DNA from: Thermodesulfobacteriota bacterium | GTDB lineage: Bacteria > Desulfobacterota > Desulfomonilia > UBA1062 | Length of the DNA stretch: 34,702 nucleotides | Reading direction: 5' to 3' | Assembly: GCA_025454155.1 (NCBI GenBank) | Contig: JALOOZ010000003.1 | Coordinates: 1 to 34,702 of the forward strand | In this document: in pieces, positions 15,477 through 21,253 of the stretch | Position numbering within the stretch: position 1 is the first letter of the stretch | How the letters are laid out: every line of letters starts with the position of its first letter | The notes under the pieces: model-generated | What the model was told of the DNA's origin: nothing | What the model saw: only the letters and a program-made list of their open reading frames with translations | Databases searched by the model: none | Position numbers and translations under genes: made by a program

Positions 15477-16418
15477 ATGAACTCGAGCATCTGTATCCTC
15501 GCAGGAAACTCCAACAGGCCGCTCACCGAGAGCATCTGCAAGATCCTCGGCTGTCAGCTGGGCAGCGGCGATGTCAAACGATTCTCCGACGGCGAGACCT
15601 CGGTGGACATCCATGAGAGCATCCGGGGCAAGGACATCTTCATTGTCCAGTCAACCTGCTCACCCACCAACGAGCACCTCATGGAGCTCCTCGTCATGCT
15701 CGATGCCACCAAGCGCGCCTCTGCGAAGAGGGTCACGGCGGTCATCCCCTATTTCGGCTATGCCAGGCAGGACAGGAAGGCATCACCCAGGGCCCCCATC
15801 ACGGCAAAGCTCGTTGCCAACCTGCTCACCGTGGCGGGTGCGGACAGGGTGCTCACCATGGATCTCCATGCCGGTCAGATCCAGGGATTCTTCGATATCC
15901 CGGTGGACAATCTCTATGCCAAGCCCGTCATGCTCCAGTATATCCGGGACAGATTTCCCGACGACCTGTGCGTCGTGGCGCCCGACGCCGGTGGCGTGGA
16001 AAGGGCCCGGGCCTATGCAAAGCCTTTCAAGGCCGATCTTGCCATCATCGACAAGAGGCGGGAACGTGCCAACGAATCCAATGTGATGCACATCATCGGC
16101 GATGTGAAGGGCAAGATATGCCTGATCGTGGATGATATCGTGGATACCGCCGGCACGCTGACCAACGGGGCGACGGCATTGCTCGACAGCGGTGCGGAAA
16201 AGGTGGCTGCATGCTGTTCCCACGGCGTGCTCTCCGGTCCGGCCATAAGCCGCATCAGTGAGTCGGGCATCGAGGAGCTCATCATCACCGACACCATCCC
16301 CTTGCGCAATGAGGCGAAGTCCTGCGGGAAGATCACGGTTCTGACCGTGGCCCCCCTGCTGGCCGAGGCCATCAAGCGAACCTACACGGGATCGTCGGTG
16401 AGCGAGCTGTTCCTCTAG
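15477..16418 (+). CDS. prs: Ribose-phosphate pyrophosphokinase
   Basis: FSDGETSVDIHESIRGKDIFIVQSTCSPTNEHLMELLVM; VIPYFGYARQDRKASPRAPITAKLVANLL; VDDIVDTAGTLTNGA. Confidence 0.97.
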   Translation: MNSSICILAGNSNRPLTESICKILGCQLGSGDVKRFSDGETSVDIHESIRGKDIFIVQSTCSPTNEHLMELLVMLDATKRASAKRVTAVIPYFGYARQDRKASPRAPITAKLVANLLTVAGADRVLTMDLHAGQIQGFFDIPVDNLYAKPVMLQYIRDRFPDDLCVVAPDAGGVERARAYAKPFKADLAIIDKRRERANESNVMHIIGDVKGKICLIVDDIVDTAGTLTNGATALLDSGAEKVAACCSHGVLSGPAISRISESGIEELIITDTIPLRNEAKSCGKITVLTVAPLLAEAIKRTYTGSSVSELFL

Positions 16419-17911
16419 CCGCCCGCCATTTCGGGCCTGAACTGAAGGGCCTCGGCGACGTGCGACTCCTGAATTTCCCCGCAAGCCTCCAAATCTGCGA
16501 TGGTACGGGCCACCTTGATGACCCGGGTCAGTCCCCGCATGCTCAGAGAATATCTCTTCAAGGCGGCAACGAGCATCGTCTTTGTACGGGCGTCCAGGCT
16601 GCATGATACCTCGAGGGTATTGTCGGGAATCCTCGCGTTGATGAAACCCCTTCTCATCTGCACAGACCGAGCGGAGGCGACCCTTTCACGAACCGGGGTC
16701 GATGAGGGACTGCCCTTCGGGCTCAGCACCAGTTCCGCCTCCACGGGATCCACCCAGACGTGGAGGTCGATCCGGTCCAGCAGGGGCCCGGAGATCCGGG
16801 ACCGGTATTTCGCCACCTGCATGGGCGTGCAGCAGCATTCCTTGGACGGGTGGCCGAGATAGCCGCAGGGGCAGGGGTTCAGGGCGGCGATGAGCTGGAA
16901 ACCGGCAGGGAAGGTGAACGTGGAGCCCGCCCTGGATATGGTCACCAGTGCTTCTTCCAGGGGCTGGCGCAGGGCCTCCAGGGCACTGCGCCTGAACTCG
17001 GGCAACTCGTCCAGGAACAGGACCCCGTTGTGGGCGAGACTGACTTCCCCGGGGACGGGGATGGCACCGCCGCCGATGAGACCGGCATCCGTTATGGTGT
17101 GATGGGGCGACCTGAAGGGCCGCGTGAAGATGATGCCGTCCTTGCTGAGCCTCCCGGCGGCAGAATAGATGGTGGTGCACTCGAGGATCTCGTCATGGGT
17201 GAGCTGAGGAAGGATTGAAGGCAGCCGTTTTGCCAGCATGGACTTGCCTGCCCCTGGCGGGCCGATGAACAGCAGGTTGTGGCAACCGGCGGCAGCAATC
17301 TCCAGGCCCCGTTTTCCCATGGCCTGTCCGCAGACCTCCGAGAGATCGGGCTGGTGTGTTTGACTGGCCGCAGGGGTTTCCCGTGCGGTCTGACGGGGAA
17401 TCCCTTCTCCCCGGAGAAAGGCGAAGACCTCCCTGAGACTGGAGACCGGATAGACCTCCACCCCTGCCAGGCATGCCTCATCTCCATTCTGCGAGGGGCA
17501 GACGATACCCTTGAAGCCCTTGTTCCTGGCGAGAAATGCCGCAGAGATCACCCCCCTTACAGGCCTCACGCCACCGTCGAGGCCGAGCTCTCCCACGAAG
17601 AGGTAGTCGAGCAAGGTCTTTTTCGGCACCAGACCAAGGGCCGCGAGGATGGCCACCGCTACGGGCAGGTCGAAGGTCCCGCCCTCCTTCTTCACGTCGG
17701 CGGGTGCGAGGTTCACCGTGATGCGCCGGGGCGGGAATTCGAGACCCGAATTCACGATGGCCGATCTCACCCGTTCCTTGCTTTCCCTGACCGTGGAATC
17801 GGGCAGGCCTACGACGGCCATGCTCGGCAGACCTCCCTGGATGTCGGCCTCCACCATCACACCAAGCGCATCAGTCCCCCACAGGGTGGCTGAGTGGACG
17901 CTTGCAATCAT
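16415..17911 (-). CDS. comM: YifB/ComM family Mg-chelatase-like AAA+ ATPase
   Basis: MIASVHSATLWGTDALGVMVEADIQGGLPSMAVVGLPDSTVRESKERVRSAI; GPPGAGKSMLAKRLPSILP; FRSPHHTITDAGLIGGG; LNPCPCGYLGH. Confidence 0.95.
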   Translation of the reverse strand: MIASVHSATLWGTDALGVMVEADIQGGLPSMAVVGLPDSTVRESKERVRSAIVNSGLEFPPRRITVNLAPADVKKEGGTFDLPVAVAILAALGLVPKKTLLDYLFVGELGLDGGVRPVRGVISAAFLARNKGFKGIVCPSQNGDEACLAGVEVYPVSSLREVFAFLRGEGIPRQTARETPAASQTHQPDLSEVCGQAMGKRGLEIAAAGCHNLLFIGPPGAGKSMLAKRLPSILPQLTHDEILECTTIYSAAGRLSKDGIIFTRPFRSPHHTITDAGLIGGGAIPVPGEVSLAHNGVLFLDELPEFRRSALEALRQPLEEALVTISRAGSTFTFPAGFQLIAALNPCPCGYLGHPSKECCCTPMQVAKYRSRISGPLLDRIDLHVWVDPVEAELVLSPKGSPSSTPVRERVASARSVQMRRGFINARIPDNTLEVSCSLDARTKTMLVAALKRYSLSMRGLTRVIKVARTIADLEACGEIQESHVAEALQFRPEMAGG

Positions 17912-17962
17912 TATGACGGCATCTTAACAGAAGCATCATGGGGGGTTCAAGCCGTCAAATGC

Positions 17963-17998
17963 GAGAAAAAGGGCGGGCCATGATAGCCCGCCCTTTGT
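17963..17998 (-). terminator. Strong Rho-independent terminator (minus strand)
   Basis: Minus strand AAAGGGCGGGC TATCATG GCCCGCCCTTT followed by TTCTC: 11-bp perfect stem running into a T tract. Confidence 0.85.
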
Positions 17999-18086
17999 GA
18001 ATGCGCAAAGCATTGATCAGGGGACCGGGTTGTGAGGGCTGTTCAGTCCGACAGGGTCATAGTATCGAGCCCTGCGATACCCCACC

Positions 18087-18135
18087 ACGCCTTGCCTCGC
18101 CGCGCCTGCCATGCCACGGCTTGCTTTGCCCGGCC
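18087..18135. repeat. Degenerate pentanucleotide tract (NNGCC on +, GGCNN on -)
   Basis: ACGCC TTGCC TCGCC GCGCC TGCC ATGCC ACGGC TTGCT TTGCC CGGCC: about ten units in 49 nt. Confidence 0.6.
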
Positions 18136-18181
18136 TTAACGCGCCTGACCACGGAACGATCTTCGCGCATTCGTGGTTTGA

Positions 18182-18209
18182 ATAATAACCCTGAAAGAGG
18201 GCTTGTCAA
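18182..18209 (-). promoter_or_regulatory. Putative sigma70 promoter of the candidate ncRNA
   Basis: Minus strand TTGACA (perfect) - N16 - TATTAT (5/6). Confidence 0.6.
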
Positions 18210-18242: not shown

Positions 18243-19181
18243 TCACGGGGAGAAGAACCGGGAAAAGAGCAGGAGCATGGCCGGCAGGCTGATGAGTGAG
18301 AAGAGGAAACTCGCCACCATGAACTGGTTCACGATGTTCCTGTTTCCGCCCTCCCGCTCGGTGATGATGGGGATGGCCGTGACCGGAGGGACGGCGGCCT
18401 GCATCATGATGATGAACGCCACCGGATACGGGGGTCTGACGACCATGAGCACCCCGAGGGTCACCAGGGGGAACACGAGGTTCTTCATGATGACGAATTT
18501 GAGGTTCTCTGCATAGGCTGGCGTCCCGCTCCCTTTCATGTCCATATGGATGTTGCCCCCGAGCACGAGCATCAAAAGGGGTACGGCCATGGCCCCCACG
18601 AGCCTGAGACCGTCAATGAGGAACTTGGGTATGAACCCGTCAACGCCCGCCAAGCGTACAGCCAGGGCCAGAATAGTGGCTATGAGCACCGGGTTGAAGA
18701 CCTTGGCCGGCTCCACCTTGATGCCCTTGCTGAAGAACAGGGGGGATATGTTGAAGAAGAAGGCCGGGTAAAAGAGGGTGAAGAGGAACAGCTCCACCAG
18801 CAGCGGGGAATTCGTGCCGTACATCTCTGCAATGATTGCCAGAGGGAAGAAGATGCCGTTCTGGAAGAGCAGGCTCACCCGGAACTCCCGGTGGAATTCT
18901 CTCCTGGCCACCGCGGAGCAGATGAACGTGAGCAGCAAGAAGAGGCCGGTGGAGCCGATCCACCACAGGGGAAGGGTCCACCACGAGGTGTTTTTCTCGG
19001 GATGGAAGTTCGTGAGGATGCCTATGAAGGTCAGGCAGGGAAGCGCGATGTCTATGGCGAGCACGGAGAGCGACCCCAGGATGGACCCTGCGATCACGCG
19101 CCTGCTCAGCATCCAGTATCCCAGCATGCCGATGGCCAGGAGCATGGCCACGGCGGTGAAGGTGGTGAAGAAGACGCTCAC
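18243..19181 (-). CDS. AEC family (auxin efflux carrier-like) transporter
   Basis: Hydrophobic multi-TM protein; VSVFFTTFTAVAMLLAIGMLGYWMLSRRVI...; C-terminal MMQAAVPPVTAIPIITEREGGNRNIVNQFMVASFLFSLISLPAM. Start uncertain; GTG at 19181 proposed instead of the 411-aa extended ORF. Confidence 0.82.
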   Translation of the reverse strand: MSVFFTTFTAVAMLLAIGMLGYWMLSRRVIAGSILGSLSVLAIDIALPCLTFIGILTNFHPEKNTSWWTLPLWWIGSTGLFLLLTFICSAVARREFHREFRVSLLFQNGIFFPLAIIAEMYGTNSPLLVELFLFTLFYPAFFFNISPLFFSKGIKVEPAKVFNPVLIATILALAVRLAGVDGFIPKFLIDGLRLVGAMAVPLLMLVLGGNIHMDMKGSGTPAYAENLKFVIMKNLVFPLVTLGVLMVVRPPYPVAFIIMMQAAVPPVTAIPIITEREGGNRNIVNQFMVASFLFSLISLPAMLLLFSRFFSP

Positions 19182-19201
19182 ACCAACATCATATACGCGA
19201 A

Positions 19202-21253
19202 TCAGGCGAGGTATTCGAGCATTTTTGATACCTCGGTGGTGGGCTCTCTGCAGGAAGAGTTCGAGCATACATAGGCCGTTGGCAGGCCGTTGACGGGCGG
19301 CATGTCCAGCTGCCCGGACGCGAAGCCTGGAGGTGCCGGTTCCGGCCCGAGGCGGTAGACCGCATGGGGCAGGAAGCGGGTGCGCAGTGCATGGATCATG
19401 GCACGGGCATCGCTGCAGGCCGGGTCGACGGCAATGACCACCTCCATGCCGGGGCCGCTCAGGGCATCCAGGCCGCACATCAGGAAGACATACGCCGACG
19501 GGAGGTGCTCCGCCTGGCCGGAAAATGCCGTCCCGATCTCAAAGGCCCGATCCTTCATGGTGCGGTCTCCCAAGAGGCCCGCGAGCCTGACGAGGCTGAG
19601 CATGGCCACGGAGTTGCCCGAGGGAACGGCGTTGTCGTATGCGGTCTTGGTCCGTGCGATGGGTACTGCGGTTTCGTTGCCAGTGGAGTAGAATCCCCCG
19701 CCGGTACTGTCCCAGAAATGCTCGAGAAGAACGGAGGTCAGGTTTGCCGCCTGGTCCAGGTACCGCTGTTCGAAGGTGGCCTCGTAGAGTTCGATGAACC
19801 CCCAGGAGAGGAAGGCGTAGTCGTCGAGCCCGGCCTCGCCCCTGGCCTGCCCGTGCATGAAAACATGCCTGAGCCTGCCGCCGGCCACCATGTTCTCCAG
19901 GATGAAACCCGCCGCCTGCTCTGCAGCGGCAGTGAAGTCGGGTCTGTCGAAAGCCGCCCCTGCCTTTGCCAGGGCGGCTATCATGAGGCCGTTCCAGTCA
20001 GCGAGGGCCTTGGTGTCCTTGAAGGGAGCCGCCCTGTTCAGGCGGGCTTTTCTCATGTCCGCCAGCATGCGCCGGATGTCTCCCTGCAGGACATCCGCGT
20101 CCTTGCCGAGGATCTCTGCCAGGGACCGTGTGTCCCGTGCCTGGTGTATGATGTTGAGCCCCTGGACGTCGCCGCCGCGGAAATTGCCGTCATCCTGGAG
20201 GTCGAAGACCTCCCGGGCCAGGCTGTAGGAGGATCCTTCCAGCACGGTTCTGAGCTCTGAGGTCGACCACAGGTAGAACTTTCCCTCCTCTCCCTCGCTG
20301 TCCGCATCCTCTGCACCGGCAAAAACGCCGTCTTCCGTGCGCAGATCCCTGAGAACATAGGCAATGATGTCTTCGGCGGTGTCCCTGAAGTCCTCCCTGC
20401 CGGTCAGCTGGAAGGCCTCGGTATAGGCCATGGCAAGCAGGGCCTGGTCGTAGAGCATCTTCTCGAAGTGCGGGACGAGCCACTCCCTGTCCGTGGAATA
20501 CCGGTGGAATCCTGAACCCACGTGGTCGTAGATGCCCCCTGCGCGCATGGCCTCGAGGGTCTTCACTGCCATGGCCAGGGCGTCGTCATCCCCGGTCCTC
20601 CTGAAATACCGCAGCAGGAACATGATGTTGTGAGGCATGGGGAATTTCGGTGCAGCGCCGACCCCCCCCCATTCCGGGTCGAAGCGGGCCTTGAGTTCTC
20701 CGTAGGTCTTTTCAAGGAGCTGAGGCCTCAGTCCCTGGCCCGGTTTCACCTCGCAGGCGCGCCTCACGAGCCTAGTGATTTCGGCAGCCTCGCTGATGAC
20801 CCGGTCTCTCTTTTCCTTCCAGAGATTATTGACGACCGGGATCAGCTCCATCATTCCCATGAGCCCTTGCCTGGTATGCTTGGGCAGGTACGTGGCGGCG
20901 AAGAAGGGCTGCTTCCCGGGTGTCATGATGACGGTGAGCGGCCAGCCGCCGCTTCCCGTGAGGAGCTGGCAGGCCTGCATGTAGATGTGGTCGATGTGCG
21001 GCAGCTCCTCCCGGTCCACCTTCACGCTGACAAAGGTGTCGTTCATGAGGGCGGCCACTTCTCCGTCCTCGAAGCACTGGTGGGCCATGACGTGGCACCA
21101 GTGGCAGGAGGAGTAGCCGATGGAGAGGAAGACCGGTTTGTCTTCCGCCTGGGCCTTTGCGAAGGCCTCCTCGCCCCAGGGGAACCAGTCCACCGGGTTT
21201 CCGGCGTGCTGGAGGAGGTAGGGGCTTGTCTCTTGTGAGAGCCGGTTGTGCAT
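19202..21253 (-). CDS. Thioredoxin domain-containing protein (DUF255 / YyaL-SSP411 family)
   Basis: [84 protein letters not shown]; start ATG 21253 with AAAGGAGC upstream. Confidence 0.94.

Follow-up and report, generated by a model that had tools for sequence, protein, structure and literature searches.

A candidate structured small RNA gene of narrow distribution between yifB and an AEC-type transporter gene in a Thermodesulfobacteriota bacterium

On the minus strand of the window, the 34,702-nt stretch of Thermodesulfobacteriota DNA analysed here, a gap of 330 bp separates yifB/comM (16415-17911), coding for a Mg-chelatase-like ATPase, from the gene of an AEC-type transporter (18243-19478; PF03547). 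Does this gap harbour a gene of its own and, if so, of which kind? An original prediction, made from the letters of this DNA, had placed a structured non-coding RNA here, either of the 6S type or of a different or undescribed family. We assume, with a probability of roughly 80%, that the gap contains a lineage-specific structured small RNA gene that is presumably transcribed independently. The best reading of the sequence comparisons is a narrowly distributed, undescribed family of trans-acting RNAs.

The elements of the putative gene lie between 18209 and 17966 and comprise a promoter-like sequence, a segment of 179 nt and a strong intrinsic terminator (Table 1). The promoter-like TTGACA-N16-TATTAT, proposed at 18209-18182, is indeed present with 11 of 12 matches and is the sole such site in 600 bases, for which 0.2 would be expected. 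The GC-rich hairpin ending in TTTTT had also been recognised correctly and reads AAAGGGCGGGC-TATCAT(G)-GCCCGCCCTTT+TT. A simple terminator scan did not pick it up, in our estimation because the T run is mostly absorbed into the stem.

Table 1. Features of the gap between yifB and the transporter gene (positions of the window), and NNGGC arrays found elsewhere (by locus)
Feature	Position	Strand	Basis or remark
-35 box TTGACA	18204..18209	-	TTGACA also in G003 and G004; TTGTAA in G022
-10 box TATTAT	18182..18187	-	invariant across the four homologues, with the closing stem a few nt downstream
Predicted transcription start	~18175	-	
Putative structured RNA body, 179 nt	17997..18175	-	homologues in G003, G004 and G022; covariation
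Closing helix P1, 5' arm GAATGCGCGAAG	18161..18172	-	12 pairs, 100% paired in four sequences; five pairs vary on one side
Helix P2, 5' arm GGTCAGG	18144..18150	-	two-sided changes at two pairs in G022
Unpaired 5' bulge, largely conserved; CGCGTTAA in G000	18136..18143	-	C35, G36, T37, A39 and A40 invariant in alignment A2
Helix P3, 5' arm GGCCGG	18130..18135	-	one pair two-sided: C-G replaced by U-A in one sequence and by U-G in a second
Branch A, strongly conserved hairpin GCCGTG/CGCGGC, loop GCATGGCAGG	18089..18129	-	consensus; hairpin most distinct in the fold of G022
Branch B, long stem-loop with bulges, GTGGTGGGG...CCCTCACAAC, apical GCAGGGC/GACCCTGT	18029..18088	-	four pairs changed on both sides
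Helix P3, 3' arm	18023..18028	-	consensus fold
Helix P2, 3' arm CCTGATC	18015..18021	-	consensus fold and covariation
Closing helix P1, 3' arm CTTTGCGCATTC	17999..18010	-	covariation test
Intrinsic terminator, GC-rich hairpin ending in TTTTT	17966..17996	-	copies in G000, G003 and G004 (identities in the text)
Putative separate promoter of yifB (TTGAAC-N18-TAAGAT), adjacent to the start of this gene at 17911	17921..17950	-	read by eye from the sequence
NNGGC arrays	L203 1348-1597; L204 1278-1626; L215 6300-7019; L249, L268 reverse strand; L330; many IMG/VR loci L209-L288		

A DNA search of 99 related genomes recovered homologues in G003 (84% identity over 225 nt), G004 (87% over 184 nt) and G022 (72% over 181 nt). 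G003 and G004 belong to the same genus as the present genome (G000), G022 to another genus of the same family. Judged by its relatives, the lineage would be a Desulfomonilia-like one within the Desulfobacterota. The respective BLAST E-values of 2.6e-65, 2.5e-56 and 1.6e-16 are independent of the covariance model, which yielded E-values of 3e-43 to 5e-35 for the whole-length homologues and was itself built from these sequences. Measured over the RNA, identity to G000 is 82-83% for G003 and G004 and 74% for G022. The RNA precedes yifB in G003 and G004 as it does in G000; the copy of G022 occupies a different chromosomal place, next to an aminotransferase gene and with no known proximity to yifB, on a contig that stops short of a terminator. 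The covariance model, derived from four sequences, detected no further homologues in 42 genomes of the class and 395 genomes of the phylum; with laxer filters it recovered only the same four RNAs from 24 genomes of the family, and the candidate model found no homologue in the zapA-fau gaps and the yifB upstream regions of relatives. A search of plasmids and a search of IMG/VR for the core pattern were likewise negative. Where BLAST matched the core in distant relatives, the DNA concerned belonged to NNGGC arrays or coding regions, or the match was short and due to chance. Even in G001 and G002, two further genomes of the genus, and in most of the family the RNA was not found, and yifB is present without it in G001, G002 and other family members. 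Since it was not found in these genomes, the RNA does not provide a core function.

Pairwise identity over the whole RNA amounts to 71-83% among the four homologues, and the terminator is 82-94% identical among the three copies that possess one (G000, G003 and G004). Beyond the terminator identity drops to 50-53%, shuffled upstream pairs giving ~47-50%, and beyond the promoter it is 43-61%, one comparison with G022 lying above the shuffled value there. The -10 box and the 5' end of the RNA are co-aligned in all four sequences, the closing helix starts at nearly constant spacing, and insertions and deletions fall mostly in unpaired columns of the alignment. Promoter and terminator are conserved together with the RNA body, the terminator being judged in three copies as the contig of G022 ends. 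The putative gene is kept between flanks at or near chance-level identity, which indicates that selection acts on the RNA gene.

The consensus fold runs from P1 (12 bp) through an internal loop that varies, P2 (7 bp), a bulge CGCGUUAA that is largely conserved and stays unpaired in the consensus, and P3 (6 bp) to a three-way junction from which the branches A and B emerge. The original prediction had described a 12-bp closing helix with one G-U pair, which recurs in the predicted fold as P1. Its inward continuation was confirmed in part: GGTCAGG/CCTGATC and GGCCGGG/CCCGGTC are contained in the predicted fold and show compensatory changes in relatives, but the proposed CGTT/AATG link is missing from the consensus of the four sequences. 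As P2 and P3 had been read by eye from one sequence before the relatives were known, their compensatory changes constitute partly independent support.

Covariation among relatives had been suggested as a check of the proposed stems. In a sample of only four sequences, three of them from one genus and all of them used to derive the structure, two-sided changes affected 7 of 54 pairs and 8 cells, and 96.3% of the cells were paired. Neither the two-sided changes nor the pairing figure was reached in any of 500 shuffles, and slid partners gave values of 0-2. The folding energy of the G000 sequence is only moderately below that of shuffled sequences (z = -1.64 if the terminator is left out, -2.95 if it is included), and the homologues gave z-values of -3.39, -2.64 and -1.77. 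P1 is present in all homologue folds and the three-way junction is clearest in G022; the minimum-energy folds of G003 and G004 depart from the consensus in the middle, so that alternative pairings of the junction may exist. We consider the evidence for the fold from these four sequences good but not final, and it is the comparative support, not the folding energy, that is decisive for regarding the candidate as a structured RNA.

From these features a model can be proposed. Transcription would initiate from the sigma-70-type promoter at ~18175 and would terminate near 17966, where the hairpin and its T run lie, resulting in an RNA of ~210 nt whose 5' and 3' ends would be sealed by the 12-bp helix. 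Above P1, a bulged rod formed by P2 and P3 would lead to the three-way junction that carries the highly conserved hairpin A and the long stem-loop B. This RNA would act in trans and would probably regulate by binding a protein, instead of serving as a leader or an mRNA. In favour of this are its own terminator, the second genomic location, the predicted sealing of its ends and the way in which conserved letters cluster in hairpin A and the CGUUAA bulge.

Base pairing with mRNAs is the mode of action of many bacterial small RNAs, and an antisense RNA would be a sub-case of the same explanation that differs in its mode of action only. Suitable sites for contact with mRNAs could be the conserved unpaired CGUUAA bulge and the loop of hairpin A, which is rich in G, whereas a 5' end held in a 12-bp helix provides no single-stranded 5' seed; we treat antisense pairing as a tentative possibility. 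Protein binding appears somewhat more likely, given that the 5' end is predicted to be locked in P1 and that conservation is found in hairpin A and the bulge. The candidate resembles orphan structured non-coding RNAs that were proposed from comparative genomics of bacterial intergenic regions (e.g. PMC8632094, PMC11109978) in being a GC-rich intergenic RNA with a conserved fold and no assigned function. In contrast to those, it is narrowly distributed (four genomes of one family) and has no matching model in Rfam 15, the comparison having been made against Rfam only.

The 6S type named in the original prediction deserves separate consideration; 6S RNA binds RNA polymerase and serves as template for pRNA. 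The candidate shares with 6S RNA (SsrS, RF00013) a length of ~180 nt, a stand-alone gene with its own promoter and ends that are closed by the helix of a rod-like fold, but it has no covariance-model match, is not located at zapA-fau, and is predicted to form a three-way junction with a paired 3' strand in place of the large open central bubble by which the single rod of 6S RNA mimics an open promoter. A scan of the window against Rfam, proposed earlier with 6S, SRP RNA, RNase P RNA and tmRNA in mind, brought only a tRNA to the gathering score, none of these four models reaching it, and RF00013 did not match the gap even with E-values up to 10. A permissive scan of the gap gave sub-threshold matches only, mostly to a generic terminator hairpin, and the homologues matched nothing in Rfam at E <= 1. 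RF00013 was also without a match in the whole G000 genome, in the genus and in the homologues, although it scored above the cut-off in 52 of the 99 relatives. The structured non-coding RNA as such is thus upheld by homologues and covariation; its assignment to the 6S type is not, for want of a match to RF00013 or to a family-specific model and in view of the wrong locus and a different fold. The other option given at the outset, a different or undescribed RNA family, is now favoured, as none of the homologues is matched by a family in Rfam.

A strongly diverged or relocated 6S RNA, or a 6S paralogue, that binds the RNA polymerase holoenzyme would nevertheless explain the size, the sealed ends and the strong promoter and terminator, and would fit a genome and genus lacking an Rfam 6S match that so many relatives have. 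Moreover, 6S RNA diverges fast in this family. G005, G008, G016 and G018 possess a canonical 6S RNA in the gene order zapA, 6S, fau, rny, tyrS (gene names from translations), and G011 has a recognisable but visibly diverged copy at zapA-fau that is missed by Rfam. A family 6S model (R2) built from these five genomes, used with filters off, produced only chance-level matches, none of them at the candidate, and no credible match at its homologues; R2 is also blank in the zapA-fau gaps of other genera and so has limited reach. G000 has a zapA-fau locus separate from the candidate (L192 on contig C99), though in its gap of ~240 nt a 6S RNA was recognised neither by Rfam nor by R2. G001, G002 and most of those family members that equally lack an Rfam 6S match do not carry the candidate. 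Finally, the consensus and G022 folds predict a rod with a three-way junction and a paired 3' strand and leave the 40-nt hairpin A without an open bubble across from it. The candidate is probably not 6S RNA, and we regard even a diverged or relocated form as improbable.

Independently of the candidate, a zapA-fau gap of ~200-250 nt persists in most genera of the family in which neither Rfam nor R2 detects a 6S RNA (L171, L172, L174, L176, L178, L179, L180, L183, L192 and L193); either fast divergence of 6S or its replacement may account for this. Searches for rny came up empty in G000, G003, G004, G013 and G022, and those for fau in G003, G004 and G013. G004 is listed as 98% complete although neither gene was found in it; in G000 the contig stops just inside rny, and assembly gaps may explain some of the absences.

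The core of the RNA is dense in NNGGC units, most of all in branch A, and contains five GGC pairs at a spacing of 5, which none of 5,000 dinucleotide shuffles reproduced. Mycobacteriophages of the genus Cheoctovirus contain NNGGC arrays that a 48-nt stretch of the core matches with 89.6% identity (E = 2e-8). More than 100 stretches of IMG/VR carry arrays of this type, which in many cases lie between a stop codon and the gene that follows. The candidate might accordingly be imagined as the founding member of a new RNA class, with a core that derives from or works like the phage arrays and binds a dedicated partner via the periodic GGC motif. Apart from the 5-nt periodicity and the 48-nt match the two differ: the phage arrays are longer and mostly intergenic, and a closing helix and a terminator were not seen in them. 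Four-unit NNGGC runs in G000 are near the background of the reversed pattern (2+2 versus 0+1), and a literature search on phage pentamer repeats found nothing relevant. The similarity is unexplained and possibly coincidental, and a new class of this kind seems to us slightly less probable still than a diverged 6S RNA. As a separate observation, long strand-specific NNGGC arrays are present in phage contigs and in two genomes of the phylum (G062 and G067), and the strand that carries GGC is mostly that of the neighbouring genes (55:18 upstream and 45:24 downstream, with crude ORF calls).

A cis-acting leader or attenuator of yifB (comM) might be suspected from the position of the RNA in G000 and G004, where it lies ~50-60 nt upstream on the yifB strand, and from its terminator. 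However, a promoter-like site of its own directly precedes the yifB start in G000 as well as in G004 (TACAAT), G003 (TAAAAT) and G001 (TAATAT), at a similar place before the ATG, and the yifB mRNA is probably leaderless or nearly so in these four genomes as this site is very near the start codon. In G003 ~200 nt intervene between the terminator and yifB, the copy in G022 follows an aminotransferase gene, and most family members have yifB without the RNA. The RNA is thus not always found upstream of yifB, and the separate promoter-like site and the intervening terminator speak against co-transcription, which makes a leader very improbable. Least probable of all is a small protein encoded by a frame rich in Arg, Lys and Gly that starts with an ATG 6 nt past the predicted transcription start: it has 37 codons in both G000 and G003, and an inner frame VKAGxSxPWxGRxGxARRG (18058-18170) is open in all four sequences, but start, length and upstream frame vary, the ATG frame ends after 10 codons in G004 and G022 through indels in the P1-P2 internal loop (alignment read by eye), no 15-codon ORF from that ATG is listed for these two genomes, total lengths differ and substitutions track base pairing. 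Protein coding was rejected, as the ORFs are kept neither in length nor in frame among the homologues.

In most genera of this family a 6S RNA escapes the Rfam model, and loss of 6S, its replacement or mere divergence are all possible there. The candidate described here would add to a little-studied bacterial lineage a structured RNA family that is absent from Rfam and that offers a testable fold and clear gene boundaries.
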